From contig NZ_SMKW01000046.1 in NCBI RefSeq assembly GCF_004348985.1, positions 1-64,000 on the forward strand: a DNA stretch of 64,000 bases, written 5' to 3'. Made by a program: the position numbers and the translations under genes. The stretch's first letter is position 1. Each line of letters opens with the position of its first letter. The notes under the pieces were generated by a model. It was not told where the DNA came from and made no database searches. It worked only from the letters and a program-made list of their open reading frames with translations. The stretch comes from Saccharopolyspora elongata (GTDB lineage: Bacteria; Actinomycetota; Actinomycetes; Mycobacteriales; Pseudonocardiaceae). This document shows, piece by piece, positions 6,361-45,306 of the stretch.

Positions 6361-7406
6361 CAGCTGGCCCTCGCTTCGGTGTCGGAGCCGCGAGCGGCGA
6401 GGCCCACGGCGAGTTCGATCAGCTGGTCCTCCTGGCCGCCGATCAGCTTGCGCTTGCCCGCCTCGACGAGGATTTCGGCGCCGGAGACGCCGTACTTCGC
6501 CGCGGCGCGATCGGCGTGCTTGAGGAAGCTGGAGTAGACGCCCGCGTAGCCCATGGTCAGCGAGAGCCGGTCGAGCAGGCACTCGCCGTCCATCACCGGC
6601 CGGACCACGTCCTCGGCGGCGTCGATGATCTTCAGGGTGTCGACGCCCGTACGGATGCCGAGCTTCTCGGCGACCGCGACGAACGCCTCGACCGGGGTGT
6701 TCCCGGCGCCGGCGCCGAAACGCCGGGTGGAGCCGTCCACCTGGGTCGCCCCGGCGCGCACGGCGAGCACCGAGTTGGCCACGCCGAGACCCAGGTTCTC
6801 GTGGCCGTGGAAGCCGACCTGGGCGTCGTCGCCGAGCTCCGCGACCAGCGCCGCGATCCGCTCGCTGGTGTCCTCCAGCACGAGGGCGCCCGCGGAGTCC
6901 ACGACGTAGACGCACTGGCAGCCCGCGTCGGACATGATCCGGGCCTGCTGCGCCAGCACCTCCGGCGGCTGGCTGTGCGACATCATCAGGAAGCCCACCG
7001 TCTCCAGGCCCAGCTCGCGGGCGAGCCCGAAGTGCTGGACGGAGACGTCGGCCTCCGTGCAGTGCGTGGCGATCCGGCAGATGGCCGCCCCGTTGTCGGC
7101 CGCCGCGCGGATGTCGTCCTTCACCCCGACGCCGGGGAGCATCAGGAAGGCGATCTTGGCGCGCTTGGCCGTGGCCACCGCGGTCTTGATCAGCTCCTGC
7201 TCGGGGGTGTGGCTGAAGCCGTAGTTGAACGACGAGCCGCCGAGGCCGTCGCCGTGGGTCACCTCGATGACCGGGACCCCGGCGCCGTCGAGGGCGGCCA
7301 CGATGTCGCGCACGTGCTCGGCGGTGAACTGGTGCTGCTTGGCGTGCGAGCCGTCGCGCAGCGAGGAATCGGTGATCCTGATGTCGAGATCGGTGCTGTA
7401 GGCCAT
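6360..7406 (-). CDS. hsaF: 4-Hydroxy-2-oxovalerate/2-oxohexanoate aldolase
   Basis: DRE-TIM pyruvate aldolase (348 residues) cleaving the hydroxy-oxo acid to pyruvate and an aldehyde that is channelled to the partner dehydrogenase. Catalytic Arg17-Asp18 (SLRDG), His21, and metal ligands His200/His202 (GFHGHEN) are present. The C-terminal communication domain ends with the GGQEDQL helix typical of BphI/HsaF. Next to hsaG in the operon, as expected for the bifunctional complex. Confidence 0.9.
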
Positions 7407-7413
7407 GGGTTTC

Positions 7414-8319
7414 TCACTGCCCCTTCTGCGCGCGGATCCGCCGGGCGAAGCCCGCGCCGACGCCGGCTGCGGCGGCGGTCATGATGTCGAGGTTCCCGGA
7501 GTACGGCGGGAGGAAGTCGCCGGCGCCCTCCACTTCGAGGAACACCGCGACGCGGGCCATACCACCGTTCACAGTGGACGGATCGTCGAACTGCGGCTCC
7601 GCGCGCAGGCGGTAGCCCGGCACGTAGCCCGCGACGGCCGCGACGACCTCGTGGACGGACCGGGCGATCGCCTCCCGGTCGCAGTCCTCCGGGATCGCGC
7701 AGAACACGGTGTCGCGCATCAGCATCGGCGGCTCGGCCGGGTTCAGGATGATGATCGCCTTGCCCCGCCGGGCACCGCCGATCTCCTCGATGCCGCGCGA
7801 GGTCGTGATGGTGAACTCGTCGATGTTCGCCCGGGTGCCGGGCCCGGCCGACGGCGAGGCGACGCTGGCCACGATCTCGGCGTAGGCGACCTCCACCACG
7901 CGCGAGACGGCGTGCACGATCGGGATGGTGGCCTGGCCACCGCAGGTGATCAGGTTGACGTTCGGCGCGTCGAGGTGCTCGCCGAGGTTGACCGCGGGCA
8001 CGACCGCGGGCCCCAGCGCGGCCGGGGTCAGGTCGATCGCCTGGATGCCCCGCTCGGCGTACTTCGGCGCGTTCTCCCGGTGCACGTAGGCCGAGGTTGC
8101 CTCGAACACGATGTCCGGCTGTTCGTCCTGCGCCAGCAGCCAGTCGACGCCCGCGGCGGAGCTGATCAGCCCCTCGCCGTGCGCGCGCTTGAGGCCGGGG
8201 CTGTCGGGGTCCACGCCGATCATCCAGCGCGGCTCGATGGTTTCGGAGCGCAGCAGCTTGTACATCAGGTCGGTGCCGATGTTGCCGGAGCCCACGATGG
8301 CAGCGGTCGCCTTGGTCAC
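7414..8319 (-). CDS. hsaG: Acylating acetaldehyde/propanal dehydrogenase
   Basis: CoA-acylating aldehyde dehydrogenase (301 residues) that converts the aldolase product to acetyl- or propionyl-CoA. N-terminal NAD fold ([13 protein letters not shown]), catalytic Cys126 in [11 protein letters not shown] use GTG at 8317-8319, since the protein then starts [12 protein letters not shown] as in MhpF/HsaG and AAAGGAA lies upstream; the frame stays open far upstream but that part is non-homologous. It sits 7 nt before hsaF. Confidence 0.9.
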
Positions 8320-8351: not shown

Positions 8352-9137
8352 TCACGCGAACCGGGCCGTGACCGACCCGAGGCCGGTGAAGTCCGCGCGG
8401 TACTCCTCGCCCGGCGCGACGTCGACGGCCCTGGTGCACGAGCCCGGCAGGATCACGTGCCCCGCTTCGAGCCGGACGCCGAAGGTGGCGACCTTGCGGG
8501 CCAGCCAGGCCACCGCGGTGGTGGGGTTCCCGAGCACCGCGCTGGTGTTCCCGCGGGTGATCTCGGTGCCGCCGGAGAACAGCACCGCTTCGATGTCGGC
8601 GAGGTCCAGCTCGCCGGGCTTGGCCCGGGCGGAGCCGAGGATGACGCCCGCGGAGGAGGCGTTGTCGGCGATGGTGTCGGCGAGGCCGATCCGCCAGTCC
8701 CGGATCCGGCTGTCGATCAGCTCCAGGCTCGGGACGACGTACTCGGTGGCGGCGAGCACGTCCTCCTCCGTGCACCCCTCGCCCGGCAGCGAATCGCCCA
8801 GGACGTAGCCGATCTCGACCTCGATGCGCGGGTAGCAGTAGCGCGCGGTTTCCACCGCGCGGTCCTCCGCCAGGAACATCGTGTCGAGGAGGTGGCCGTA
8901 GTCGGGCTCGTCGACGCCCATCATCCGCTGCATCACGGGGGACGACAGCCCGACCTTGTGACCGCGCACCACCGCACCGGCGGCGAGCTGCCGGCGGATG
9001 TTCAGCAGCTGGATCTCGTAGGCGTCGACCACGTCGATGCCGGGGAACCGCTCGGTGAGCGGATCGATCGGCGCGCGATCGGACTGCGCGGCCCGGAGGA
9101 CGTCGGCGGCAGCCTGTCGAGTTGTCGCATCGAGCAT
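8352..9137 (-). CDS. hsaE: 2-Hydroxypentadienoate-type hydratase
   Basis: Fumarylacetoacetase-fold hydratase (261 residues) adding water to 2-hydroxyhexa-2,4-dienoate to give the aldolase substrate. Metal ligands Glu106, Glu108 ([11 protein letters not shown]) and Glu139 (SLELIDSR), and Lys61 in RGHKVGL, match MhpD/HsaE. First gene after a 172-bp gap containing a hairpin and two operator-like palindromes, so the hsaEGFAC part may also have its own promoter. Confidence 0.88.
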
Positions 9138-9179: not shown

Positions 9180-9194
9180 TCCCGCTCACCGGGA
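9180..9194. promoter_or_regulatory. TCCCG-N5-CGGGA operator upstream of hsaE
   Basis: TCCCGCTCACCGGGA, centred about 50 bp upstream of the hsaE start codon. It is an exact match to the palindrome recurring in promoters across this catabolic module. Confidence 0.6.
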
Positions 9195-9238
9195 CCACCC
9201 CCGTGAGGTCATCGCAGAACTCCTTCCGGACAAGCGAA

Positions 9239-9279
9239 AACCCGCGGTGCGGGCGTTCTGCGCGCTCGCACCGCGGGTT
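9239..9279. terminator. Hairpin between kshB-like gene and hsaE
   Basis: 13-bp arms AACCCGCGGTGCG (9239-9251) and its complement (9267-9279), with a 15-nt loop, lie between two operator-like palindromes. It could end transcripts arriving from hsaD-kstD-kshB, or stabilise or process the operon mRNA. Confidence 0.5.
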
Positions 9280-9284
9280 CTCCC

Positions 9285-9299
9285 GCCCGCTCACCGGGA
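9285..9299. promoter_or_regulatory. Second operator-like palindrome inside the hsa operon
   Basis: GCCCGCTCACCGGGA matches the operator family in 14 of 15 positions. It starts 11 bases upstream (in operon sense, downstream) of the kshB-like stop codon and pairs with the site at 9180, about 105 bp away, which would allow looping. Inference. Confidence 0.45.
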
Positions 9300-9309
9300 C
9301 CCCGTCCGG

Positions 9310-10353
9310 TCAGTAGTCGTAGGTCAACTTCAGCCGGTCGGTGAGCGGCACGGCCTGGCAGCCGAGGATGATGCCCTCGGCTCGGTCGGTGTCGTCGAGC
9401 ACTTCGTTGCGCTCGAGGTCGACCTCGCCTTCGAGCAGCACGCAGGCGCAAGCGCTGCAGGCGCCTTCCCGGCAGGAGTAAGGCGCGTCCAGGCCCGCGG
9501 CCAGGAGCACGTCGAGCAGCTTGCTGCTCCGGGGCCACGACACGGTGCGCGTTTCCCCGTCGAGGGTCACCTCGACCTCGCTCACCGGCCCGTCCTGGCT
9601 GATCTCCGGCGGATTCTCGTTGGCGGCGAACGGATCGCCGGTCAGCGAGGTGAAGCGTTCGATGTGCACTCGCTTCGGCGGCCCGCCGAGCGCGGTCAGC
9701 GATTCGAGCACCATGTCCATGAAGACCTTGGGCCCGCAGACGAAAGTCTCGCGGTCGGCGTAGGGCCGCAGCAGCTCCCGCAGGCCCGCGGCGGTCGGCA
9801 GCCCCTGCACCGATTCCAGCCAGTGCAGCACGGTGAGCCGGTCGCCGTGCTCGTCGAGCCCGAGCGTCTGCAGTTCGTCGCGGAATATCACCGAGTTCTC
9901 GTCCCGGTTGGCGTAGAGCAAGGTGATCCGGCCCCTGCCCGCGCGGAGGGCGGACTTGAGGATCGAGAGCACCGGGGTGATCCCGCTGCCGGCGGCGACG
10001 AGCAGCAGATCGGTGTCCAGCGACGCGGGTGTGAACGTGCCCGACGGGCTCAGCACGTCGAGCACGTCGCCCGCGACGACGTTGTCGCAGATCCAGTTCG
10101 AGCCGTAGCCGTCCTTGGTGCGCTTGACCGTGACCTTCAGCTTCTCGTCGCAGACCGGGGAACTGCACAGCGAATAGCAGCGGGCGGCGCCGCCCGGCCG
10201 GTCCGAGGGGATCCGGATGGTCAGGAACTGGCCGGGCAGGTAGCCGAATGGCTCGCCCGGCTGCTCGGAGTGCTCCAGGACGAGGGTGTGCGCGTCGGCG
10301 GTCTCCCGGATCACCTCGACGACGCGAAGCTTCCACACCGTTGGCGGCGTCAT
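9310..10353 (-). CDS. kshB: Ferredoxin-NAD(P)H reductase, KshB type
   Basis: Class IA Rieske-oxygenase reductase (347 residues): FAD-binding domain (RCYSLCSSP, about 47-55), NAD domain (LLLVAAGSGITP; later CGPKVFMD), and a C-terminal plant-type [2Fe-2S] domain with Cys-rich SCREGACSACAC and a later lone Cys (ILGCQA). It should pass electrons to a 3-ketosteroid 9alpha-hydroxylase oxygenase (KshA), which is absent from this window. Start ATG has a strong GGGAGGAAAC site. It follows kstD by 13 nt. Related phenylacetyl-CoA or hydroxylase reductases share this fold, so KshB rests on context. Confidence 0.8.
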   Translation of the reverse strand: MTPPTVWKLRVVEVIRETADAHTLVLEHSEQPGEPFGYLPGQFLTIRIPSDRPGGAARCYSLCSSPVCDEKLKVTVKRTKDGYGSNWICDNVVAGDVLDVLSPSGTFTPASLDTDLLLVAAGSGITPVLSILKSALRAGRGRITLLYANRDENSVIFRDELQTLGLDEHGDRLTVLHWLESVQGLPTAAGLRELLRPYADRETFVCGPKVFMDMVLESLTALGGPPKRVHIERFTSLTGDPFAANENPPEISQDGPVSEVEVTLDGETRTVSWPRSSKLLDVLLAAGLDAPYSCREGACSACACVLLEGEVDLERNEVLDDTDRAEGIILGCQAVPLTDRLKLTYDY

Positions 10354-10366
10354 GTTTCCTCCCGCC

Positions 10367-12019
10367 TCATCCGAGAACTCCTGCGGCGTGCTTCGCCGCG
10401 ATGTAGCCGAAGACGATGGACGGGCCGATGGTGGCGCCGGGGCCCGCGTACTCGTTGGCCATGACCGACGCGGTGGTGTTGCCGGTGGCGTAGAGGCCCT
10501 CGATCGCCGAGTCGTCCGCGCGCAGGACCCGGCCGCTCTCGTCGGTGACCAGGCCGCCCTTCGTGCCGAGATCACCCGCCTCGATCCGCACCGCGTAGAA
10601 CGGCGCCTTGTCGATCACGTCCAGGTTCGGGTTCTTCAGCGTGGGATCGCCGTAGTAGCGGTCGTAGGCGCTGTCGCCACGGCCGTAGTCCGCGTCCTTG
10701 CCCGCGCGGGCGAAGCCGTTGAACCGGTCGACGGTCCACCGCAGCGCGTCCGCCGGGATGTCGATGCGTTCCGCGAGTTCCGCGATCGTGCCGGCCCGGT
10801 GCACGATGCCGGCGTCGTAGAAGCTCTGCGGGAACGGCATGCCGGGCAGGATCTGCGCGAACGGGTACCTCGCGCGCGCCCTCGCGTCCAGGATGAACCA
10901 GATCGGCCGGTGCTTGCCCGCCAACTGGGCGTGCACGAAGTTCGTGTACGGGGCCGACTCGTTGGTGAACCGCTTCCCGTCCGCCGACACGATGATCTGG
11001 CCCGGGATGGCGCGCTCGGAGACCAGCGGGATCGTGGCTCCCGAGGGATGTTCGACCGAGGGCATCCACCAGGCGTCGTCCATGAAGTCCAGGGCAGCGC
11101 CCAGCTTCCGGCCCGCCGCGATGCCGTCCCCGACGTTCTCCACCGCGCCGAGGCTGTGGTTCTCCTGCCCGCCCTCGGGCAGGTATTCCGCTCGCATCTC
11201 GCTGTTGTGGTCGAAGCCGCCGGTCGCGAGCAGCACGCCGCGGCGCGCGCGGATGCGCTGCTGCTCGCCCTCGCGACGCACCACGACACCCGCCACGCGA
11301 CCGTCCTCGACCACCAGGTCGGTCATCGGAGCCCGCAGCCACAGCGGGATTCCGGCGTCCTTGAGCGCCATCCGCATCCGCGCGACCAGTGCCCGGCCGC
11401 CGATGGACATGTGCCGCCGCCGGACGACGTTGGAGGACACCCGCCAGGCGGCGATCACCGACGCCCAGCGGCCCCGCCAGGTGCGCTTGACCATGGCCAG
11501 GTCGTGGTAGTCCTTGCCGGTGACCCACAGGCCCAGCGGGCCCTTCATGCTGTTGGGGCGCTGGAACTCCTCGTCCGCGCCGAGCTTCCGCGTGTCGAAC
11601 GGCAGCGGCTCGACGGATCGCCCCATCGGCCGGCCGCCCTCGTACTCCGGGTGGTAGTCGGCGTAGCCCTTGGTCCAGTAGAACCGCATCCACCTGCTGC
11701 GGCACAGCAGTTCCATCGCCGCGGGGCCGTGGTCGACGTAGGCGTCGAGGCGGGCGGCCGGCACCTTGCCCTCGGTGAGCAGGTCCAGGTACCGGCGGAT
11801 CGACTCGCGGCTGTCGTCGTGGCCCTTCGCCCGCAGCACGGGGTTGTTGGGGATCCAGATGCCGCCGCCGGACATCCCGGTGCTGCCGCCGTACTTCCCG
11901 GCCTTCTCGACGACCACCGTCGACAGGCCGGCGTCGGTGGCGGTGAGCGCGGCGGTCATCCCGCCGCCGCCGGACCCGACGACGACGAAGTCGAACTCGT
12001 GGTCCCAGGACGCGGTCAC
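10367..12019 (-). CDS. kstD: 3-Ketosteroid delta1-dehydrogenase
   Basis: FAD dehydrogenase (550 residues) that puts the delta1 double bond into the steroid A ring. FAD fold VVVGSGGGGMTAAL at the N-terminus; substrate domain in the middle; C-terminal EYAGPGATIGPSIVFGY gives Tyr524 and Gly528 in the spacing of the catalytic Tyr/Gly pair of Rhodococcus KstD1. The GTG start overlaps the hsaD stop as GTGA (12016-12019), so the two are translationally coupled. Together with KshB/KshA activity it would cause B-ring opening. Confidence 0.88.
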   Translation of the reverse strand: MTASWDHEFDFVVVGSGGGGMTAALTATDAGLSTVVVEKAGKYGGSTGMSGGGIWIPNNPVLRAKGHDDSRESIRRYLDLLTEGKVPAARLDAYVDHGPAAMELLCRSRWMRFYWTKGYADYHPEYEGGRPMGRSVEPLPFDTRKLGADEEFQRPNSMKGPLGLWVTGKDYHDLAMVKRTWRGRWASVIAAWRVSSNVVRRRHMSIGGRALVARMRMALKDAGIPLWLRAPMTDLVVEDGRVAGVVVRREGEQQRIRARRGVLLATGGFDHNSEMRAEYLPEGGQENHSLGAVENVGDGIAAGRKLGAALDFMDDAWWMPSVEHPSGATIPLVSERAIPGQIIVSADGKRFTNESAPYTNFVHAQLAGKHRPIWFILDARARARYPFAQILPGMPFPQSFYDAGIVHRAGTIAELAERIDIPADALRWTVDRFNGFARAGKDADYGRGDSAYDRYYGDPTLKNPNLDVIDKAPFYAVRIEAGDLGTKGGLVTDESGRVLRADDSAIEGLYATGNTTASVMANEYAGPGATIGPSIVFGYIAAKHAAGVLG

Positions 12020-12882
12020 GGCGCGTCCTTCCGCGTCAGGAACGCCAGCACCGCACTCTCCCAGGCTTCCTTCTGCTCGATCATCGTCCAGTGCCCGCAG
12101 TCGGGGAAGATGTGCAGTTCGGCGTCGGGAATCGTGCGCATCGGGACCAGCGCCATGTCGACCGGGCTGACCCGGTCGTCGCGTCCCCACGTGATCAGCG
12201 TCCTGGCCCGGATCTTGTGCAGCATCGCCCAGTACGGCGGCTCGTCGGACTTCGCCGCCGCGGCGGCGACGGCCTCGAAAGCCTTGCGGCCGTACATCTT
12301 CCGCGCGCTGGCGAGGGTGCTCGGATCGGTGGCGTGCGCCCAGCGCTCCTCGATCAGCTCCTCGGTCACCAGCGCCCGGTCGTACACCATGGAGTTCAGC
12401 CACGCCACGAGCCGTTCCCGCGTGGGTTCCTCGGTGAACTCCATCAGCAGGTTGATGCCTTCGCCCGGCGAGGGGCTGAAGACGTTGCGGCCGATCCCGC
12501 CGATGGTGACGAGCCGGCGCACGCGGTCCGGCTGGTCGATGGCGAACCGGGTCGCGACGATGCCGCCCATGGAATTGCCGATCACGTCCACCTGCTGGAG
12601 GCCGAGGCCGTCCAGGAATCGCCGGACGGCGTCGGGGGCGGCGACCATGGGGTGCTCGTCGGTCGGGTCGCTGACACCGAACCCGGGGAATTCCAGGACC
12701 AGGCAGCGGAAGTGCTCGGCGAAGACCGGCAGGTTGCCGCGGAAGTTCCGCCACCCGGTGACGCCGGGTCCGGACCCGTGCAGCATCAGCAGGGGCGGCC
12801 CGTCGCCGGCTTCGTGGTAGCGCAGGACACCGCGGTCCGTCTGCAGCTCGCGCAGCGTGGACTCGTAGCTCAGTTCCGTCAT
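12016..12882 (-). CDS. hsaD: Meta-cleavage product hydrolase, HsaD type
   Basis: Alpha/beta hydrolase (288 residues) cleaving the C-C bond of the meta-cleavage product (4,9-DSHA in steroid degradation). Catalytic Ser104 in GNSMGG, Asp236 in WGRDDRVSP and His264 in DCGHW; HGSGPG forms the oxyanion region. The N-terminus (ELSYESTLRE) resembles HsaD. First gene of the operon; a TAACGT -10 box lies about 45 nt upstream with operator palindromes further up. Confidence 0.88.
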   Translation of the reverse strand: MTELSYESTLRELQTDRGVLRYHEAGDGPPLLMLHGSGPGVTGWRNFRGNLPVFAEHFRCLVLEFPGFGVSDPTDEHPMVAAPDAVRRFLDGLGLQQVDVIGNSMGGIVATRFAIDQPDRVRRLVTIGGIGRNVFSPSPGEGINLLMEFTEEPTRERLVAWLNSMVYDRALVTEELIEERWAHATDPSTLASARKMYGRKAFEAVAAAAAKSDEPPYWAMLHKIRARTLITWGRDDRVSPVDMALVPMRTIPDAELHIFPDCGHWTMIEQKEAWESAVLAFLTRKDAP

Positions 12883-12926
12883 CTCACGCCCAAGCTCTCG
12901 AGGACTTTCAGGGGTTTCGCCGCTGC

Positions 12927-13090
12927 ACGTTAGGCGCGGGTGCCCCGGTCGGGCGTCGCGAACTCCCGATCAGCGGGATCACGGGCTCCCGGCCAACGGG
13001 ATCGCGACCGCGCGCGGATTCCGCTTCCCGGTGGTGCCTCCCGCTCAACGGGACGACGCGGCGAGAACGCCGCAACCGCGCGCATAACGT
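12927..13090. promoter_or_regulatory. Divergent hsaD/hsaB promoter with three operators
   Basis: Both directions have a TAACGT -10: 12927-12932 for hsaD (minus) and 13085-13090 for hsaB (plus); hsaB starts 7 nt later, leaderless. Neither has a good -35. Palindromes TCCCGATCAGCGGGA (12964-12978), TCCCGGCCAACGGGA (12987-13001) and TCCCGCTCAACGGGA (13039-13053) lie just upstream of each -35 position. This is the arrangement expected of an activator such as an IclR-family protein. Confidence 0.65.
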
Positions 13091-13097
13091 CGGTCCC

Positions 13098-13679
13098 GTG
13101 AACACCCAGCGTGCAGCGGAAGATCCTCAGGTGACGGTGGACGGCGCCCCCGCGGCGGTGGCGCCCACGCCGCTGGAGATGCGGCGGGCGATGGGTACCT
13201 TCGCCAGCGGCGTCACGGTGGTGACCGGGTACGACGGCGAGCCGGTGGGCTTCGCCTGCCAGTCCTTCGCCTCGGTGTCCCTGGAACCGCCGCTCGTGCT
13301 GTTCTGCGCCGACCACCGGGGCCGGTCCTGGCCGCGGATCCGCGACGCCGGGCGCTTCTGCGTGAACGTGCTCGCCGAGCGGCAGACCGACCTGTGCGAC
13401 CGGTTCGGTTCCAGCCGGGGAACCAAGTTCGAGGGACTGCCCTGGCAGCTGTCCCGGTGGGGCAGCCCGGCGCTGCCCGGCGTGCTCCTGCGGGTGCACG
13501 CGGAGGTGCACGACGTGCACGCCGCCGGCGACCACGACGTGGTGATCGGCCGGGTGCTGGAGCTGGAGACGCCCGTCGACGCGCCGCCGATGGTCTTCTT
13601 CCGGGGCAGGTTCGGGATCGCCCCGGAGCCGGAGCTCGTCATGCCGGACGCCTGGGGCTGGGGCGACGCCTGGGCCTGA
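13098..13679 (+). CDS. hsaB: Flavin reductase subunit of the HsaAB monooxygenase
   Basis: FMN/FAD reductase (193 residues) supplying reduced flavin to HsaA. The flavin-reductase-like fold is shown by MRRAMGTFASGVTVVTG, CQSFASVSLEPPLVLFC, the FCVNVLAE strand and DHDVVIGRV. Leaderless GTG start, 7 nt after TAACGT. Transcribed away from hsaD and convergent with the IclR gene. Confidence 0.87.
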   Translation: MNTQRAAEDPQVTVDGAPAAVAPTPLEMRRAMGTFASGVTVVTGYDGEPVGFACQSFASVSLEPPLVLFCADHRGRSWPRIRDAGRFCVNVLAERQTDLCDRFGSSRGTKFEGLPWQLSRWGSPALPGVLLRVHAEVHDVHAAGDHDVVIGRVLELETPVDAPPMVFFRGRFGIAPEPELVMPDAWGWGDAWA

Positions 13680-13744
13680 GCCGCCGCGCCCACCGGGTCG
13701 CGCGGGATTTCCGCGGTGCACGGCCGGAATCCGGCGCGCGGCGG

Positions 13745-14632
13745 TCAGAGCCAGTCGCCGGATCCGGCCGCCATCATCCGGTCGAGTGTCGCGGTCGACC
13801 AGGTCTTCTCGGGCGCGACCACGCTCATCTTGCGGCAGGAGCGCGGTTTCGCCGCGGCCGGGTAGAGCACGCCCGACACCGTCCTGGCGGCGTCCACAAC
13901 CAGCGGCGCCACCTTCTCCAACGGCGCCTTGACGTAGCCCACCAAGGAGATGCTGCCCACCGGTCCCTCCGGGCCGCGGACGGCGGCCGCCGCGCAGGCG
14001 AGCGAGGGAATGCACTCGCCCCGTTCGAAGGCGAGGCCGTGGCGGCGCCGGATGCGGTTGAGCTCCTGGTGCAGGGTGCCGATGTCGCCGATGGTCCGGT
14101 CCGTCAGCCGCCCGATGCGGTCGCCGAGCAGCTCGTCCACGGTCTCGGGCGCGAGCCCGGCCAGGATCGCCTTGCCCAGGGCGGTCGAGTGCGCCGGGGC
14201 CCGGCCGCCGACGCACGAGGGCACCGACGCGGCGAACCGGCCGCCCACCTTGTCGAGGTAGTGGATCTCGCCGCCCTCCAGCACCCCGAGGTGAACGACC
14301 ATTCCAGTTTTCATCTGGAGGTCGTGCAGCAGCGGTGCGGCGGCGCCGCGGAGCTCGTCGTGGGCGTTGGCCTGGCCGCCGAGGCTGAGCGCGCGGCGCC
14401 CGAGCGAGTAGCCGGCGGCGCTGTGCCGGAGCCAGTCGAGCCGGACCAGCTGATCGAGGATCCGATGCGCGGTCGACCTGGGAAGATGCGTGCGCCGAGC
14501 CACGTCTTCCAGGGTGAGCCGAGCGGAGCAGCGCTCGAACGAGTCGAGGATCAGCGTCATCCGTTCCACCATCGACGGCGGCAGCTCGCGGCGCGGGGAG
14601 TCAGCGTTCTCGCGAGCGAAAGGGACAGTCAT
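13745..14632 (-). CDS. IclR-family regulator, probable controller of the steroid cluster
   Basis: 295-residue regulator: winged helix-turn-helix about 20-85 (LTLEDVARRTHLPRSTAHRILDQLVRL) and IclR effector domain 95-270. I use ATG 14630-14632, preceded by GGGGAGAACC; an upstream ATG gives a longer N-terminus without a ribosome site. It sits in the middle of the cluster, and the palindrome TCCCGGTGACCGGGA lies at 14764 in its divergent promoter. It is the best candidate to bind the recurring TCCCG-N5-CGGGA sites; no KstR-type TetR gene is present. Confidence 0.83.
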   Translation of the reverse strand: MTVPFARENADSPRRELPPSMVERMTLILDSFERCSARLTLEDVARRTHLPRSTAHRILDQLVRLDWLRHSAAGYSLGRRALSLGGQANAHDELRGAAAPLLHDLQMKTGMVVHLGVLEGGEIHYLDKVGGRFAASVPSCVGGRAPAHSTALGKAILAGLAPETVDELLGDRIGRLTDRTIGDIGTLHQELNRIRRRHGLAFERGECIPSLACAAAAVRGPEGPVGSISLVGYVKAPLEKVAPLVVDAARTVSGVLYPAAAKPRSCRKMSVVAPEKTWSTATLDRMMAAGSGDWL

Positions 14633-14763
14633 GGTTCTCCCCTCGGCCCGGCGTACCGGAAGTAAAACTGAAATGAATTCCACCTTGCCGGGAACGGTAG
14701 CAGCGGCGCGCGAGCTGCGGAAGTGCCCCGCCGGGGTTTCGCCGTGTTCCGGGCGCCGCCGGC

Positions 14764-14778
14764 TCCCGGTGACCGGGA
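14764..14778. promoter_or_regulatory. Operator between the IclR gene and the F420-type oxidoreductase
   Basis: TCCCGGTGACCGGGA, palindromic except for its central base. It lies about 130 bp upstream of the IclR start and 30-45 bp upstream of a TAAACC -10-like box (14808) preceding the oxidoreductase gene. Confidence 0.6.
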
Positions 14779-14861
14779 TGAGCCGGGAGTTCGCGAGGCG
14801 GCTGGGCTAAACCTTGTCGACGGCCCGGTGAAACCGGCGCCGCGCGAGGAAAGGTCTGCAG

Positions 14862-15719
14862 ATGAGAGTCGGCATCGCAAGCCCGGTGGTGACGCAGGTG
14901 CCCGGCGTGCATTCGGAGTGGGAGCGCACGGCGGGCATCGAAGAGCTCGGCAGGATCGCCGAGACCGCCGACCGGTTGGGTTTCCACCACCTGACGTGCA
15001 GCGAGCACGTGGGCATTCCCCGGGAGGTCGCCGAGCAGCGCGGCGCGACCTACTGGGACCCGCTGGCCACGCTCGGATACCTGGCCGCGCGCACCACGCG
15101 GATCCGCCTCGCCACGCAGGTCCTGGTGCTCGGCTACCACCACCCGCTGGAGATCGCCAAGCGCTACGGCACCCTCGACCGCGTGTCGGGCGGCCGCCTG
15201 GTGCTCGGGCTCGGCGTGGGCAGCCTGGAAGAGGAGTTCGCGCTGATCGGCGCGCAGTTCGAGGGGCGGGGCTCGCGAGCCGACGACGCCCTCGCCGCCT
15301 TGCGGGCCAGCCTGTCGCAGCGGGAACCGGAGTACCACGGCGAGCACTACGACTACGCGGGCTTCGTCGTGGAGCCGCACGCCGTGCAGGCCCGCGTGCC
15401 GATGTGGATCGGCGGCCGGACGCTGCGCTCCCTCCGCCGCGCGGCGAAGCACGGCGACGGCTGGGTGCCCTTCGGCCTCGACACGGCTCAGCTGCGGGAG
15501 ATGCTGGCCAAGGTCGACCTGCCGGCGGACTTCGAGGTCGTGCTCTCGGCGGGCCGCGCGCTGGACCCGATGGGACGACCGGAGGCGGCCGAGGCGGCGC
15601 TGGCACAGGTGCGCGAAGCGGGCGCCACGCTCATCGGCGCCCAGCTGCGGGCGCGATCCGCCGACCACTACTGCGAGCAGCTCGAAGCCCTGGCCGGCAT
15701 CGCGGCCGGCATCGATTGA
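14862..15719 (+). CDS. LLM-class F420-dependent oxidoreductase
   Basis: Luciferase-like monooxygenase fold (285 residues), of the group that usually uses coenzyme F420. Signs are GIASPVVTQVPGVHSEWER, CSEHVGIP, LGYLAARTTRIRLATQVLVLGYHHPLEIAKR and the GVGSLEEEFALIG segment. First of three coupled genes with two NTF2-fold proteins, behind a cluster operator. It is probably a redox step on a steroid intermediate, but the substrate is unknown. Confidence 0.78.
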   Translation: MRVGIASPVVTQVPGVHSEWERTAGIEELGRIAETADRLGFHHLTCSEHVGIPREVAEQRGATYWDPLATLGYLAARTTRIRLATQVLVLGYHHPLEIAKRYGTLDRVSGGRLVLGLGVGSLEEEFALIGAQFEGRGSRADDALAALRASLSQREPEYHGEHYDYAGFVVEPHAVQARVPMWIGGRTLRSLRRAAKHGDGWVPFGLDTAQLREMLAKVDLPADFEVVLSAGRALDPMGRPEAAEAALAQVREAGATLIGAQLRARSADHYCEQLEALAGIAAGID

Positions 15720-15734
15720 CGGGATGAGGTACCG

Positions 15735-16244
15735 ATGGCTGAGGAATCCACCGATCTTGCCGAGCGGTTCGCCGCATTGGAGGAGCGCCTGCGGCAGCTC
15801 GAAGACCAGCAGGAGATCGCCCGGCTCATCGCGAGCTACGGCCCGCTGGTCGACAGCGGGAGCGCCGAGGCGGTGGCGGACCGCTGGGAACCCGACGGCA
15901 CGTACGAGGTCGACGGGTGGTCGATGAACGGCCGCGCCGAGATCGTCGCGATGGTCACCGGCGCGACGCACCAGGGCTGGATCGAGGGCGGCTGCGCCCA
16001 CTTCCTCGGCCCCGCGCACATCACCGTCGAAGGCGACGAGGCCGTCGCCGTGGGCCACTCGCTGATGGTGGTGCACAACGGCGGGGAGTTCGCCGTGCGC
16101 CGCGCCACCGCCAACCGCTGGCAGCTGCGGCGCGGACCGGCGGGCTGGCGCGTCACCCGCCGCACGGGCCGGGTCCTCGACGGCCGCGGGGAGTCGCCGC
16201 GACTGCTCGCCGCGCTCGATCCCGGTGCGGTGGAGGCGGAATGA
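15735..16244 (+). CDS. NTF2-fold (SnoaL-like) protein
   Basis: 169-residue cone-shaped NTF2-like protein. After a short helix (LAERFAALEERLRQLEDQQEIARLIASYG) come the strands seen in SnoaL_4 polyketide cyclase/dehydratase-like proteins (RWEPDGTYEVDGWSMNGRAEI). A GAGG site precedes the ATG; it begins 15 nt after the F420-type gene and overlaps the next gene by ATGA. The fold is shared with delta5-3-ketosteroid isomerase and ring hydratases, so a steroid isomerase or dehydratase role is plausible but unproven. Confidence 0.7.
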   Translation: MAEESTDLAERFAALEERLRQLEDQQEIARLIASYGPLVDSGSAEAVADRWEPDGTYEVDGWSMNGRAEIVAMVTGATHQGWIEGGCAHFLGPAHITVEGDEAVAVGHSLMVVHNGGEFAVRRATANRWQLRRGPAGWRVTRRTGRVLDGRGESPRLLAALDPGAVEAE

Positions 16245-16648
16245 CCGCCCGGGAGGAGATCGTGGAGCGGCTCGCCGAGCTGGCGACCGCGATCGACGCG
16301 CGGGACTGGACGGCGGTCGCGGCCGCCTTCCTCCCGGATGCCCACGGGTACAGCAGGGACGGCGTCGAGGCGATCGTGCGGCAGATGCGCGATCACCTCG
16401 ACGGGTGCGGGCCGACGCAGCACCTGCTCGGCAACCACCGGGTGGCGGTGGACGGCGACACCGCGCGGTCGCTCACCTACGCGCGCGTGCACCACGTCGG
16501 GGCCGGGCCGATGGCCGGGCGCTTCTTCGAGTGCATGGGCGAGTACGACGACCGCTGGGTGCGCACGCCCGGCGGATGGCGGCTGTCGTCGCGCACGTTC
16601 GACATGCGGATCGTCCTCGGCGACTTCGCCGTGCTCCGCCCGGCCTGA
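16241..16648 (+). CDS. Second NTF2-fold (SnoaL-like) protein
   Basis: 135 residues, starting MTAREEIVERLAELATAIDARDWTAVAAAF-type helices then DARGY/FRG-like strands, ending in the NTF2-type VRTPGGWRLSSRTFDMRI. The ATG overlaps the previous stop (ATGA), so the two are coupled. The pair may form a heteromer, as known for some Actinobacterial NTF2-fold hydratases/isomerases, but that is inference. No catalytic residue assignment is safe from sequence alone. Confidence 0.68.
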   Translation: MTAREEIVERLAELATAIDARDWTAVAAAFLPDAHGYSRDGVEAIVRQMRDHLDGCGPTQHLLGNHRVAVDGDTARSLTYARVHHVGAGPMAGRFFECMGEYDDRWVRTPGGWRLSSRTFDMRIVLGDFAVLRPA

Positions 16649-16740
16649 CCGCCACAGCCACGTCCTAATAGGACACGACCCGCCTCAGGAATCGTTTCAT
16701 GAAGGCTCATCGGCAAGGCGTCTGAGACCCGAGGAGGCGG

Positions 16741-16805
16741 CGGTTTCGCGCGAAAACGACGCCCGCCCTCACGCGGAACGCCGTTTTCGCGCGAAAACGA
16801 CGCCC
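16741..16805. repeat. Paired palindrome, TTTCGCGCGAAA type, locus 2
   Basis: Cores at 16744-16755 and 16785-16796, centres 41 bp apart. The spacer contains CCTCACGCGG, the reverse complement of the CCGCGTGAGG found in locus 1, so the whole unit is inserted in the opposite orientation. It lies in the convergent gap (16649-16859). Confidence 0.75.
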
Positions 16806-16859
16806 TGCGTGCCAGGCGATCACGCCTCACGCGTGCCCGCACCGCAGTCTGGAACGCCC

Positions 16860-17609
16860 TCAGAACCCGGCTCCGGCGGTCATTCCCCCGTCGACGACGA
16901 ACTCCGCTCCCGTGCAATAGCTCGACTCGTCGGAGGCGAGGAACAGCACCACGTTGCTGATCTCCTGCGATCTGGCGTAGCGGGGAATGGGCAGCCGGCG
17001 AATCAGCTCGCCGGTCCGGTCCTCCAGCTCGTCCTCCTCCCTGCCGGTCATCGGCGTGGCCACGCTGCCGGGGTGCACGGAGTTGACCCGGATCCCGCGC
17101 GGCCCGAGCTCCAGCGCTGCGGACCTCGTCAGGCCCCGGATGCCGAACTTGCTGGCGCTGTAACCGGCGAAGCCCGCTCCCCCGACCAGCCCGTTGACCG
17201 ACGAGATGTTCACGATCGAGCCGCCTTCCCGCATGACCGGCGCGGCGTGCTTGATGCCGAGCCACTGCGAAACCAGGTTGGCCTCGAGGATTTGCCGGAA
17301 GTCCTCGACGTTCGCGTCGGCGTAGGACTGGAACCGCAGGATGCCCGCGTTGTTGACCAGGACGTCGAGCCCGCCGAACGCCGAAACGGTGTGGTCGACG
17401 ATCGCCGACCAGTCGTCGGTCTCGGTCACGTCGTGCGGGAAGAAGCGGCAGTCGTCGCCGAGTTCCCCCGCCAGCCGCCGGCCCTCGTCGGCCAGGACGT
17501 CGCCGAAGACGACCCGGGCTCCTTCCGCCGCGAAGGTGCGGACGTGGGCTGAGCCCATGCCCCGCGCGCCTCCGGTGACCAGTGCGACCTTGCCGTCCAG
17601 CTTGCCCAT
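16860..17609 (-). CDS. Short-chain dehydrogenase, 3alpha/20beta-hydroxysteroid dehydrogenase-like
   Basis: Classical SDR (249 residues): cofactor motif TGGARGMG, NNAG, catalytic Ser in NISSVNG, YSASK, and PGSVATPMTG. The whole chain resembles Streptomyces 20beta-hydroxysteroid dehydrogenase, including the VDGGMTAG end. ATG 17607-17609 has GGAG upstream; longer upstream reading is Arg-rich and unlikely. Divergent from the DHA2 exporter, with operators between. Likely oxidises or reduces a steroid hydroxyl; the exact carbon is unknown. Confidence 0.8.
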   Translation of the reverse strand: MGKLDGKVALVTGGARGMGSAHVRTFAAEGARVVFGDVLADEGRRLAGELGDDCRFFPHDVTETDDWSAIVDHTVSAFGGLDVLVNNAGILRFQSYADANVEDFRQILEANLVSQWLGIKHAAPVMREGGSIVNISSVNGLVGGAGFAGYSASKFGIRGLTRSAALELGPRGIRVNSVHPGSVATPMTGREEDELEDRTGELIRRLPIPRYARSQEISNVVLFLASDESSYCTGAEFVVDGGMTAGAGF

Positions 17610-17679
17610 CGACCCGCTCCTCCACGTCCGTCGTGCGTGGGGGCAGCATGGTGGCGGAGCGCGCGGCGCACCGGCCCGA

Positions 17680-17779
17680 TCCCGCTGAGTGAGCAGCTCC
17701 GCCGCCGGCGCGCACCGGTTCCGCATCCGTCTCGGTGACCGAGACCTCTTCGGTTGCCCCCTGGTCGAGTCGCTAGCGT
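17680..17779. promoter_or_regulatory. Divergent promoter with cluster operators
   Basis: A perfect-armed palindrome TCTCGGTGACCGAGA (17730-17744) and a degenerate one, TCCCGCTGAGTGAGC (17680-17694), lie between the SDR and the exporter. A TAGCGT -10 (17774-17779) serves the exporter, and the good palindrome is just upstream of its -35 position, again activator-like. Confidence 0.55.
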
Positions 17780-17908
17780 CCGCTGGCACGCCCGCTCCGG
17801 GCATCCGCCACGGCCTGCCCCGGGCGCCGCGCGGCTGGCCAGAACTCCGCTCCGCCAGCCCGAATTCGATGAGCACCGCAGCCAATCCGACTCAGCGAGG
17901 AGTCCAGA

Positions 17909-19372
17909 ATGGATCAGGCATCGCTGCCGCAAAGATCTGCGCCCACCGGACCGGACGCCGACGGCGAATCCGTTCGCCAGGAGCGGTCCACCGCGCAGAA
18001 CTACGCGATCATCGCGCTTCTCGTCCTGCTGGTGGAGATCACCGGGCTCACCTACACGATGGTGACGCCGGTGCTGTCGAACATCGCCGCCGCGTACCGA
18101 TCGCCGGACATCTCCTGGATCATCACCGCCGTCACCCTGGTGGGCGCGATCGCGTTCGCGGTGTGCGGGAAGCTGGGCGACATCTACGGCAAGAAGAAGG
18201 TCGCGCTGGCCTGCACCGCCGTGTTCGCCGTCGGCACCGCGCTGTGCGCGACGGCTCCGGTGCTGCCGCTGATGATCGCCGGTCGCGCGCTGCAGGGCTT
18301 CGGCCTGGCCGTCCTGTCGCTGACGTACGGGCTGGTCCGGGACGTGCTGCCGAAGCGGCTGATCCCGATCGCGCTGGGCTTCATCGGCACGGGGATGGGG
18401 GCCAGCACGATCATCGGCCCGTTCATCAGCGGAATCCTGCTCGGCACGTTCTCCTTCCGCGGCGTCTTCTGGTTCCAGCTCTGCTACGCGGTCGTGGTGG
18501 GCCTGCTGGTGTGGCGATTGATCCCCGAGAGCGGGCTGCGCGCCAAGGTCGGCGTGGACTGGACCGGGGCGGCGCTGCTGGGACTCGGCGCGCTGGCCTT
18601 CCTCGCCGGTGTCGGGATGGCCAAGAAGGCGGGCTGGGTCTCGGTGCCGACGCTGGGCGGGATCATCGCGGGCGTGCTGCTCATCGCGGGATGGGTCGCC
18701 TACGAGCGGCGTGCCGCCGATCCGCTCGTCCACATCGGCCTCCTCACGCGGCGCAGGGTCGGTCTGCCCATGATCGCCAACGCCTGCGTGCAGTTCGCGC
18801 TGGTCGGCAACTCGATGCTGGTGCCGATGTTCGTGATGTCGTCGCCGGAAGGCGGCTTCGGGTTCGGCTCGTCGGCGCTCGAGGTGGCCGGATTCGTCGC
18901 CGCGTCAGGAGTATCCGGGATGATCGCGGGCCCGGTCAGCGGGCTGGTCTCGCGGCGTTTCGGGCCCCGCGCCGGCATGGCCTTCGGCGCCTCGGCGCTG
19001 ACCATCGGCGCGACCCTGATCGCGTTCGTCCACGACACCACAGGGATCGTCCTGCTGTCGCAGCTGATCTTCGGGCTCGGCATCGGGGCCGCCTCGGCCT
19101 CGCTCCCGAACGTCATCATGCACGCGGTGCCCGCCGACGTGCAGGGGGTCAGCGGCGGAATGCTGAACCTGGTGGGCAGTTTCGGAAGTTCGCTCGGATC
19201 TCAGGTGCTGGTGGTGCTGCTACTGCTGCCGGGCGCGACCTATCTCGGCACCGAGGTGCACTACGCCGAATCGGGCTTCGTGCTGGCCTTCCTCGCAACT
19301 GCGGTGTGCGGCGCCATCGCCCTGATCAGCGCCCTCTCCACCGGCCCCCTCCGCAGCCAGCACGAGTTGTAG
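17909..19372 (+). CDS. MFS exporter, DHA2 (EmrB/QacA) family
   Basis: 487 residues with about 14 hydrophobic helices. Motif A in GKLGDIYGKKK, and a DHA2-type helix 5 (GFIGTGMGASTIIGPFISGILL). GAGGAG lies just before the ATG. Shares a regulated promoter region with the hydroxysteroid-type SDR, so it may export a steroid intermediate or toxic phenol, or import; MFS direction cannot be read from sequence. Confidence 0.85.
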   Translation: MDQASLPQRSAPTGPDADGESVRQERSTAQNYAIIALLVLLVEITGLTYTMVTPVLSNIAAAYRSPDISWIITAVTLVGAIAFAVCGKLGDIYGKKKVALACTAVFAVGTALCATAPVLPLMIAGRALQGFGLAVLSLTYGLVRDVLPKRLIPIALGFIGTGMGASTIIGPFISGILLGTFSFRGVFWFQLCYAVVVGLLVWRLIPESGLRAKVGVDWTGAALLGLGALAFLAGVGMAKKAGWVSVPTLGGIIAGVLLIAGWVAYERRAADPLVHIGLLTRRRVGLPMIANACVQFALVGNSMLVPMFVMSSPEGGFGFGSSALEVAGFVAASGVSGMIAGPVSGLVSRRFGPRAGMAFGASALTIGATLIAFVHDTTGIVLLSQLIFGLGIGAASASLPNVIMHAVPADVQGVSGGMLNLVGSFGSSLGSQVLVVLLLLPGATYLGTEVHYAESGFVLAFLATAVCGAIALISALSTGPLRSQHEL

Positions 19373-19435
19373 GGGCTGTCCCGGCGGAACCGTACCCATC
19401 CGGCGAGGTGGCACGACTCGCCCGGCTGGTGTGGC

Positions 19436-19537
19436 GTGAACGGCCTGTTCGCCTCAATAGGCGAGGCAAACAGGCCGTTCACTTCATCCATCCAACACCA
19501 GCACGCACCACCGGAGCGGAGCGAACAGGCCGTTCAC
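19436..19537. repeat. Inverted repeat with an extra third arm
   Basis: Arms 19436-19455 and 19463-19482 (GTGAACGGCCTGTT..., 20 bp, one mismatch) form a hairpin downstream of the exporter. A further partial copy of the arm (AACAGGCCGTTCACCTC) is at 19524-19540. The hairpin may terminate the exporter transcript; the third copy makes alternative pairings possible. Confidence 0.5.
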
Positions 19538-19584
19538 CTCGATAGGCGCCCAGGGTCGGTGGGCGCCTTGGTTCGCCACTGCGC

Positions 19585-19629
19585 GTCGAGAACGGGGCTG
19601 CGGTCGCGCACCGCAGCCCCGTTCTCGAC
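19585..19629. terminator. Perfect 20-bp hairpin next to a stop codon
   Basis: Arms 19585-19604 (GTCGAGAACGGGGCTGCGGT) and 19610-19629 are exact complements with loop CGCGC, ending 2 nt before the stop codon of the minus-strand SDR. Probable intrinsic terminator without a U-tract. Confidence 0.7.
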
Positions 19630-19631
19630 CG

Positions 19632-20408
19632 CTAGAAGACTTCCGGGCCCCGCAGGGTGGCTTCGGCGCCACCGTCCACATAGATCACCTGCCCGGTCAT
19701 GTGCGTGTTCCCCGTGCTGATCAGCCAGCCCAGTGCCGCGGCGATCACGCCCGGTTCCGCGTATCCGTTCAGCGGCATCGGCACCGCCTCGTCCACGACC
19801 TTCTTCATCGCCTCGTCCTCGAGGAGCGGCGCCGCCATCGGGCTGAGCACCACTCCCGGTGCCACGGCGTTGAGCGGGATGCCCGCACCCGCCCAGTCCG
19901 CGGTCACCGCCGCGCGGCGCAGCCACTGCGCGAGGGCCGATTTCGACGACGGGTACAACCGGAAACCGGCCCCGCCCTCGACCGCCGCCCGCGCGCGTTC
20001 CAGCGCCGCCTGCTCGTCGTCCCGCAGGCACGCGTCGATCACGGCCTGGTCGACCGGCTGCGTGCCGGCGATGGAACCGACCACCGCTGCTCGCGGCTGC
20101 GGGGCGGCCGCGAGCAGCGGCCGAAGCCCCTCCAGCAGCCGCACGACGCCGAAGTAGTTGACGCCCACGGCGATCGGATCGGGCAGCGAGACGCCGGCGC
20201 ACGCGACCACGCCGTCCAGGCGTCCCGCGCCGAGGTCGGCCACCTCCGCCACCGCCCGGGTCCGCCCTTCGTCGGTGGACAGGTCGGCGCGGACGTCCGC
20301 GGTGTCCCGATCGACACCGATCACGGTGTCCCCCTGCGCCCTCAGCATCTCGACCAGGGCCTTGCCGATGCCCGATGCCGAGCCGGTCACGGCGATGCGG
20401 CGTGTCAT
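19632..20408 (-). CDS. 3alpha-Hydroxysteroid dehydrogenase-like SDR
   Basis: 258-residue SDR resembling Comamonas HsdA over its length: IAVTGSASGIGKAL, ADVRADLSTDEGR (shared with HsdA), VNYFG, YPSSKSAL in place of YxxxK, LNAVAPGVVLSPM and the C-terminal YVDGGAEATLRGPEVF. It should oxidise 3alpha-hydroxysteroids to 3-ketosteroids, the entry to KstD and delta4-dehydrogenase. ATG 20406-20408 has AGGAG/GAGGA upstream. An operator-like site lies about 110 bp before the start. Confidence 0.82.
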   Translation of the reverse strand: MTRRIAVTGSASGIGKALVEMLRAQGDTVIGVDRDTADVRADLSTDEGRTRAVAEVADLGAGRLDGVVACAGVSLPDPIAVGVNYFGVVRLLEGLRPLLAAAPQPRAAVVGSIAGTQPVDQAVIDACLRDDEQAALERARAAVEGGAGFRLYPSSKSALAQWLRRAAVTADWAGAGIPLNAVAPGVVLSPMAAPLLEDEAMKKVVDEAVPMPLNGYAEPGVIAAALGWLISTGNTHMTGQVIYVDGGAEATLRGPEVF

Positions 20409-20515
20409 GTCCTCGTGCTCCTCACACCAGTTCGTTCGGCCTCGCCTGGGAAAATCCGGGTCGGCGGCCATCACCGCATGCCTATCGGAGTTCACCGCCC
20501 CGCGGGATCCGGTAG

Positions 20516-20530
20516 TACCGGTGAGTGGGA
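20516..20530. promoter_or_regulatory. Operator-like site between 3alpha-HSD and lipase genes
   Basis: TACCGGTGAGTGGGA matches the TCCCGGTGAGCGGGA form in 13 of 15 positions, in the divergent promoter of the dehydrogenase and the lipase. Confidence 0.45.
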
Positions 20531-44535: not shown

Positions 44536-44550
44536 TCAGCGGAGGCGATC

Positions 44551-45306
44551 ATGCGTTTCACCCTGCGCATCTGGCGCCAGGACAGCCAGGACTCGGACGG
44601 GCGGCTCGTCGAGTACGTCGTGGACGACGTGCTGCCGGACATGTCCTTCCTGGAAATGCTCGACGTGCTCAACGAGCGGCTCGCCGCCGACGGCGAGCAG
44701 CCGGTCGCGTTCGACCACGACTGCCGCGAAGGAATCTGCGGCATGTGCGGGATGATGATCGACGGGATCGCGCACGGCCCGCAGCGGGAGACCACCACCT
44801 GCCAGCTCTACATGCGGCACTTCGACGAGGGAAAGCCGATCACGATCGAGCCGTGGCGGGCGAAGCCGTTCCCGGTCGTGCGCGACCTAGTGGTGGACCG
44901 GAGCGCGTTCGACCGGATCATCGAGTCCGGCGGCTACATCAGCGCGCCGACCGGCAGCGCGCCGGACGCGCACGCGGTCCAGGTGCGCAAGCGCGACGCG
45001 GACCGCGCGTTCGAGGCCGCGGCCTGCATCGGCTGCGGCGCCTGCGTGGCAACCTGCCCGAACGGCTCCGGGATGCTGTTCACGGCGGCGAAGGCGACCC
45101 ACCTCGGCAGCCTCCCGCAGGGCCAGCCGGAACGGCTGAGCCGCGCGGAGAACATGCTGGAAACCCATGACGACCTGGGTTTCGGCGGCTGCACCAACAC
45201 CGGCGAGTGCACGGTGGTGTGCCCGGTGGGCATCCCCCTCGAAACGATCGCCCGGTTCAACCGCGACGTCCTGAAGGCATCCTTCCGCGACACCGCGGCG
45301 AGCTGA
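44551..45306 (+). CDS. sdhB: Succinate dehydrogenase iron-sulfur subunit
   Basis: 251 residues carrying three clusters: [2Fe-2S] [16 protein letters not shown] with a later Cys (TTTCQLY), [4Fe-4S] [13 protein letters not shown], and [3Fe-4S] region [15 protein letters not shown]. 15 nt after sdhA. Wires SdhA to the cytochrome b anchor. Confidence 0.9.

Follow-up and report, generated by a model that had tools for sequence, protein, structure and literature searches.

A predicted IclR-type operator of a bile-acid catabolic regulon in Saccharopolyspora elongata

The first 64,000 nucleotides of the Saccharopolyspora elongata contig NZ_SMKW01000046.1 (the whole stretch analyzed, referred to hereafter as the window) carry a steroid catabolic cluster whose promoter regions share the palindrome TCCCG-N5-CGGGA, raising the question of which protein reads this element and whether it would switch the genes on or off. 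An initial annotation of the same DNA had proposed one operator shared across the module and read by the neighboring IclR-family protein at 13745. From comparison across genomes we consider it quite likely that a PobR-like activator of the IclR family uses the palindrome as its operator and so controls a catabolic regulon for bile acids (cholate-type). The protein encoded at 13745 (IclR_A) would bind the palindrome as a dimer centered near −50, a bile-acid catabolite would bind its C-terminal domain and thereby bring about activation, and the bound protein would help RNA polymerase to start at −35-less promoters of hsaD, hsaB, hsaEGFA, the transporter gene, kshA and the cas genes; a paralogue on contig C170 (IclR_B), which has the same recognition helix, probably binds the palindrome too.

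Sequence, distribution and conservation of the palindrome

Exact copies of the palindrome stand at 9180, 12964, 12987, 13039 and 14764 of the window and a copy with a single mismatch at 9285, all where the initial annotation had placed them (its “14 of 15 positions” for 9285 corresponds to nine of the ten specified positions). Only 0.43 exact matches are expected in the window, and five were reached in none of 100 shuffles. With one mismatch allowed, the window holds 15 matches against 8.65 expected, and loose matches in the window therefore mean little. Genome-wide, the loose motif has 45 exact matches in 10.3 Mb (~0.28 per 64 kb; 10 for a reversed-pattern control); when 15 of the 45 were viewed as loci, 11 lay within called genes and four outside any called gene, one of these four in a locus where no gene was called at all. 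As the genome has 45 such matches, and most of those examined (11 of 15) are genic, we rejected the loose motif as stand-alone evidence.

Alignment of 15 sites on three contigs, hand-picked among clustered exact and near matches, reveals that the spacer of the palindrome is not free but follows the pattern N-T-S-A-N. The refined motif, TCCCG-N-T-S-A-N-CGGGA, occurs four times in the window (0.01 expected) and nine times exactly in the genome, with none for the reversed control. Eight of the nine are intergenic and lie in three steroid clusters, with near matches around them; the ninth (C191:167624) is inside a called open reading frame and was taken as chance. At up to two mismatches the refined motif gives 1234 genome matches against 272 for the control, spread over many contigs among the matches listed, so that little weight attaches to weak ones outside the clusters.

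The sites in the window cluster serve the hsaE-G-F-A genes, hsaD/hsaB, the IclR gene and its LLM oxidoreductase neighbor and, by a near match, an MFS transporter gene. The cluster on C170 (~28–46 kb) encodes two KstD-type proteins, KshA, SDRs, a hydratase, IclR_B and a KstR-like TetR protein, and that on C137 (2–3 kb) comprises casG, an SDR gene, a gene for an OYE-type enzyme and casI. Both CasG (steroid-24-oyl-CoA synthetase model) and CasI (steroid-22-oyl-CoA synthetase model) score above the curated cut-offs; since the cas genes indicate bile-acid side-chain degradation, cholate-type is the most fitting label for the module. The targets of the predicted operator reach contigs beyond the window, casG and casI included.

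Of 182 loci centered on IclR relatives in named species, the best 80 (hereafter the named loci) served to assess conservation, using a site matrix built solely from the 15 sites of this genome, a score threshold of at least 15 and a definition of intergenic that includes positions within 30 bp of a gene end. The named loci hold 255 sites, 236 of them intergenic even though 82% of the DNA is called coding, and at least one intergenic site is present in 76 of the 80. Shuffled matrices with a different consensus (150 in all) gave a mean of 2.9 intergenic matches; the two highest, with 147 and 92, nearly keep the real consensus, and the next highest had 10 (the maximum of 235 in a first permutation run was due to swaps among the three C columns). 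Two arrangements, with a site between divergent LLM and IclR genes and a site between divergent hsaB and hsaD, recur across the 15 of the 80 loci that were mapped, without being complete everywhere: among these 15, both gene orders are seen in Pseudonocardiaceae, Geodermatophilaceae, Nocardioidaceae, Streptomycetaceae and Nocardiaceae, and the hsaB/hsaD part in Streptosporangiaceae.

Promoter layout and the predicted reader

The position of the palindrome relative to the core promoter bears on the sense of regulation. We compiled 295 non-redundant pairs of a site and a gene, 27 of them in this genome and 268 in the named loci (divergent and tandem sites are counted towards both genes), in which the hexamer TANNNT starts 37, 38 or 39 bp from the palindrome center in 18, 30 and 18 pairs, respectively. 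These 66 of 295 compare with ~3.3 expected (nominal P 1.6e-63, a guide only, since the pairs are related by descent). A TTG at a −35 spacing of 14–21 bp accompanies at most one of the 66 TANNNT promoters, and the −35 region is nearly without information. The relaxed hexamer NANNNT is found at 37–39 bp in 138 of 295 pairs, against 13 of 295 at a control distance of 50–52 bp, and by gene in 42 of 58 pairs for hsaD, 18 of 20 for hsaE, 7 of 7 for the cas SDR gene, 4 of 4 for the MFS gene and 18 of 61 for hsaB. If the T of the hexamer is −12, the palindrome would be centered near −50 and end just upstream of the expected −35. The palindrome thus sits at a fixed position upstream of the core promoter, next to a missing −35 and with the −10 T 37–39 bp from its center, which is the layout of an activator site; the activator-like placement upstream of −35-poor promoters suggested by the initial annotation is upheld by this comparison of promoters.

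IclR_A (13745–14632, minus strand), the proposed reader, belongs to the IclR family by both Pfam domains (HTH_IclR and IclR_C; PF09339 at 50.6 bits and PF01614 at 100.1 bits, each above its cut-off) and is 97% identical to the IclR protein of Saccharopolyspora shandongensis. Its best NCBIfam match, PcaR/PcaU/PobR (TIGR02431), reaches 106.7 bits against a cut-off of 284.75; the protein is PobR-like and is not filed as a member of that subfamily. The recognition helix LPRST[A/V]HRI is present in 75 of 75 IclR proteins recovered from the 80 named loci and in none of the 25 other IclR proteins of this genome, whose upstream sites all score 10.4 or less. In 36 of the 75 recovered loci, the 330 bp preceding the IclR gene contain a site of at least 15. 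In a sample of 200 family genomes, site density has a median of 0.625 per Mb in the 15 genomes with the IclR protein (presence defined as E ≤ 1e-60) and 0.222 per Mb in the 185 others (P 2e-6, uncorrected for kinship). Three other genera have more distant IclR proteins (38–41% identical) whose gene neighbors that of an HsaG homologue; a palindrome of this type lies in the gap separating the two genes or at the start of the IclR gene. The sites of TYCCGnTSAnCGGRA type beside an HsaG homologue in loci L174 (10336), L175 (10690) and L176 (10045) have a GATAAT or GATGAT hexamer only ~18 bp from their center, as a repressor site would, and one type of box may thus act in opposite senses in two branches.

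Several observations weigh against IclR_A as activating reader. Genomes without a close IclR protein reach nine exact motif matches, so that the count per genome, tried as proof of the IclR protein, is only moderate evidence; the test at the level of loci was made for this reason. The named IclR relatives are 56–97% identical, and a common helix is partly expected from kinship; among other family loci the helix varies, LPRSTTHRI occurring both in L033, which has a perfect site, and in L032, which has none upstream. In 39 of the 75 recovered named loci the IclR gene has no site of at least 15 in the 330 bp before it. NANNNT is absent at 37–39 bp in 157 of 295 pairs, partly from the double counting of divergent and tandem sites; it is found on the LLM side in only 7 of 35, and on the IclR side in 3 of 30, equal to the control, which leaves autoregulation of the IclR gene by activation unsupported. 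The strong sites at both KstD genes on C170 lack a −10 at 37–39 bp. Finally, the KstR-like TetR protein of C170 (gene at 44307–44867), found in 12 of the 200 family genomes at E ≤ 1e-30, co-occurs with the IclR protein in 11 of those 12.

One alternative is that the operator is read mainly or only by IclR_B, IclR_A having another or an overlapping role. IclR_B is 59% identical to IclR_A, has the helix LPRSTAHRI and has its gene amid the sites of C170; relatives have a site in the interval that separates IclR_B from a divergent SDR gene, and the genome G129 has one close IclR protein, of B type, plus a site at its cas genes. Against this stand the 15 mapped loci, of which 14 have an A-type or no labeled IclR protein and one (L114) a B-type protein (presence being judged within ~10 kb only, not from a whole-genome search), with sites present regardless; in this genome, moreover, no site of at least 15 lies directly upstream of IclR_B (the best scores 7.8), where a DegT-type gene comes first. 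We regard sole or main reading by IclR_B as unlikely. In a tree that has 11 open forks and long branches, and is drawn on for this point only, A- and B-type proteins share one starred group of 33 rows. We favor the IclR proteins as predicted readers, A and B likely acting as co-readers.

The IclR protein could instead read the sites as a repressor, given that the IclR family includes repressors, activators and dual regulators (PMC8222616) and that in L174–L176 the hexamer lies where binding would block the promoter. In the steroid regulon, by contrast, the palindrome lies upstream of the core promoter and not over it, at 37–39 bp from the −10 and beside a promoter that lacks a −35, which makes repression quite unlikely here.

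Still less probable, to a degree that we would call very unlikely, is that the KstR-like TetR protein of C170 reads the palindrome as a repressor. Its co-occurrence with the IclR protein would fit such a role, as would a second similar TetR gene (on C47) with a site in its promoter and the genome G196, which has the TetR gene and five motif matches but no close IclR protein (best E 1e-30; the assembly is 83% complete). This reading is weakened by G074, with seven exact sites, four of them on the contig of its IclR gene, and by G063, with six sites, four of which share a contig with the gene of a 39% identical IclR relative; neither genome has such a TetR protein at 1e-30. Nor is there such a TetR gene in the 20 kb examined around the three distant IclR loci of other genera, which carry a palindrome of this type; the box has the PobR form, and a constant 38-bp distance to promoters without a −35 is nothing that a repressor would require. 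That the sites are chance GC-rich palindromes without a regulatory role, as the genic matches of the loose motif might suggest, has a negligible probability in view of the refined core, intergenic placement, conservation and −10 spacing, and is contradicted by the shuffle and permutation controls.

Spacing, conservation and helix data support the idea of one operator shared across the steroid module, and the distribution of the helix (75 of 75 against 0 of 25), site conservation and site density argue for the neighboring IclR protein as its likely reader.

Operators, regulators and genes of the window

The hsaE promoter region contains two operators. That at 9180–9194, an exact consensus upstream of the hsaE-G-F-A genes, scores 22.5 and has the −10-like hexamer CACCGT 38 bp from its center on the HsaE side; as little as 12 bp separates this hexamer from the called start codon, and so either the message is leaderless or the start call is wrong. 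The second, at 9285–9299, has one mismatch, scores 16.7 and shows no −10 at 37–39 bp; S. shandongensis (L048) has two exact sites near the counterpart of this region, 85 bp apart as against 105 bp here.

Between hsaD and hsaB, the operators at 12964–12978 (score 22.3, facing hsaD) and 13039–13053 (score 23.0, facing hsaB) each have TAACGT 39 bp from the center on the side of the gene that they face. The middle operator (12987–13001, score 16.8) is without the core T and has no −10 at 37–39 bp; its counterpart in S. shandongensis is an exact match to the refined motif. The operators from 12964 to 13053 stand in tandem, and several relatives have two sites ~69 bp apart in this region; such tandem sites probably explain a second TANNNT peak near 107–109 bp. 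The operator at 14764–14778 (score 22.0), between the IclR and LLM oxidoreductase genes, has on its LLM side either TAAACC (37 bp) or AACCTT (39 bp), and on its IclR side no such hexamer.

Three further sites had been listed as related to the palindrome. The operator variant TCTCGGTGACCGAGA at 17730–17744, upstream of the MFS transporter gene, scores 17.3 with TAGCGT 37 bp away on the MFS side, and its counterparts in L048–L050 score 17.3–20.2. The operator-like site at 20516–20530, between an SDR and a lipase-like gene, is weak (9.8) but conserved: S. shandongensis, S. indica and S. kobensis have counterparts of 9.8, 9.8 and 10.3 flanked by the same gene pair, although by the gene calls made here the L048 site runs 6 bp into the start of the lipase gene. 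The third, at 17680, looks unreal: it scores 8.5 and recurs only in the near-identical S. shandongensis and not in two other relatives. An operator-like site absent from the initial annotation lies at 1380–1394, between MFS and XRE/MLTR-type regulator genes; it scores 18.5 and has no −10 at 37–39 bp on either side.

The Hsa-like proteins of the window fall mostly below the curated cut-offs of the cholesterol-pathway models. On the minus strand are encoded an HsaC-like extradiol dioxygenase (4212–5132; Pfam BphC_D1 and Glyoxalase, the HsaC role being suggested by context), an HsaA-like monooxygenase (5176–6360; NF045629 at 386.5 bits, cut-off 450), an HsaF-like aldolase (6360–7406; TIGR03217 above cut-off), an HsaG-like acetaldehyde dehydrogenase (7414–8319; TIGR03215 above cut-off), an HsaE-like hydratase (8352–9137; hydratase models HpaH/DmpE below cut-off), a KshB-like reductase (9310–10353; PaaE and other ferredoxin-reductase models, all below cut-off, the KshB role again suggested by context), an FAD protein resembling KstD-type ketosteroid dehydrogenases (10367–12019; NF009473 above cut-off, NF005882 at 691.7 bits, cut-off 788) and an HsaD-like meta-cleavage hydrolase (12016–12882; NF045632 at 288 bits, cut-off 400). 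The plus strand encodes an HsaB-like flavin reductase (13131–13679; NF045630 at 182 bits, cut-off 230), the LLM-class F420-dependent oxidoreductase (14862–15719; TIGR03619 above cut-off) and the MFS transporter (17909–19372; Pfam MFS_1), a candidate regulon member through the site at 17730.

The initial annotation had placed the IclR system “in place of the KstR system”; this part of its reading fails, as a KstR protein is encoded at C199:39152 (333.7 bits, curated cut-off 280), on a contig that also carries KshA, KstD, HsaG and HsaE relatives. KstR boxes are based on AACnnGTT, and for the scan we used TnnAACnnGTTnnA, which we take to be the KstR-type consensus. By this assumed consensus there is one box in L168 and there are two in L170, both on C199, and none in the window, L016 or L018 (the C170 and C137 loci examined), which on this count stand outside the KstR regulon. 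Conversely, the stretches of C199 examined (10.1–60.7 kb) contain no palindrome scoring at least 15. With KstR and KstR-type boxes on C199, and no such boxes in the IclR clusters examined, the IclR system stands beside KstR, not instead of it.

Two further regulator loci were noted. The site TACCGCTCACCGGGA at C47:7726–7740 (L129 2160; score 16.2) lies ~70 bp upstream of the second KstR-like TetR gene, whose product is 43% identical to the KstR-like TetR protein of C170; a counterpart of the C47-type TetR gene preceded by a site of score 16 is found in S. hirsuta (L051) and G161 (L188). Given the palindrome ~70 bp before the C47 gene, the IclR protein may control a TetR regulator. On C170, a DegT/DnrJ/EryC1 aminotransferase-type gene (L016 13922–15154) lies between the operator at L016 13723 and IclR_B; in the relatives L044–L046 the operator immediately precedes IclR_B.

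Relation to known systems

The palindrome, which looks like a functional operator, is not new: it is Lcin1 in a new species. Footprinting in Nocardioides simplex VKM Ac-2033D revealed Lcin1, TCCCGGT[C/G]ACCGGGA, in cluster E, which is of cholate type and consists mostly of lithocholate-induced genes, and also before an HsaEGF operon (Shtratnikova et al, 2020; PMC7593942); among the papers searched that use the term Lcin1, only this one is on steroids. Site 14764 of the window (TCCCGGTGACCGGGA) is an exact Lcin1 palindrome, and the other window sites differ from it at one or more positions. The two cases share the palindrome and the cholate-type context and differ in genus and in that the targets here lie on three or more contigs; the main text of PMC7593942 does not contain the word IclR, and the sections consulted give no promoter geometry. 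KR76_18060 was suggested there as one factor for Lcin1, and KR76_18065 described as a flavin-dependent oxidoreductase, the counterpart of ro05794 (PMC7593942). We take KR76_18065 for the LLM gene that adjoins the IclR gene; as KR76_18060 is numbered next to it, just as IclR adjoins LLM in the mapped Nocardioides loci, KR76_18060 is probably the same IclR protein. By a similar argument the IclR protein of R. jostii would be ro05795, from the gene count in L100 between CamM as ro05792 (PMC6498646) and the oxidoreductase as ro05794 (PMC7593942).

Our literature search found no publication on an IclR reader for this regulon, most subscription papers being outside its reach; the candidate reader of the operator and its activating mode are newly supported here by comparison. 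If correct, the reader of Lcin1 is named and activation rather than repression is predicted, the likely Saccharopolyspora targets are listed, and a cholate regulon is set apart from the KstR cholesterol regulon. The promoter rule (palindrome center, 38 bp, TAnnnT) would be usable for finding cholate genes in other genomes.

The PobR/PcaU/PcaR group offers a further likeness in operator form. The PobR box TTGTCCGATSATCGGACAR (PMC8222616) and the window palindrome both contain CCG-NTSAN-CGG, whereas the outer bases are TC/GA here and GT/AC in the PobR box, and the context is steroids here and aromatic acids there. Group-1 operators of the IclR family are 15–16 bp palindromes of the form GKTYCRYW3-4RYGRAMC and variants (PMC8222616); compared by eye, the half-site YCG and the T-S-A core fit, and the outer bases differ.

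KstR and KstR2 likewise control the 9,10-seco steroid pathway in actinobacteria (PMC8399759), but as TetR-family repressors. KstR3 of Mycolicibacterium neoaurum (PMC10398937) also belongs to the steroid pathway, but is a negative regulator, of the TetR/AcrR family, that acts on another operon. In S. hirsuta a predicted regulator called kstR3 is counted with the cholate genes (PMC8708139); the name thus denotes a TetR repressor in M. neoaurum and predicted cholate-cluster regulators elsewhere, which may be different proteins. The steroid cluster of Rhodococcus ruber Chol-4 contains an IclR gene and a TetR gene (figure legend in PMC6498646). Knowledge of how bacterial bile-acid breakdown is regulated was called limited in a 2021 review (PMC8399759). 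On balance we lean towards a single IclR-type activator, whose gene order is kept in several actinobacterial orders, as the general switch for bile-acid catabolism. It would act through a PobR-like box at about −50 of −35-less promoters, alongside the KstR repressor system that serves cholesterol in the same cells; two opposite regulatory logics would then govern one steroid nucleus.

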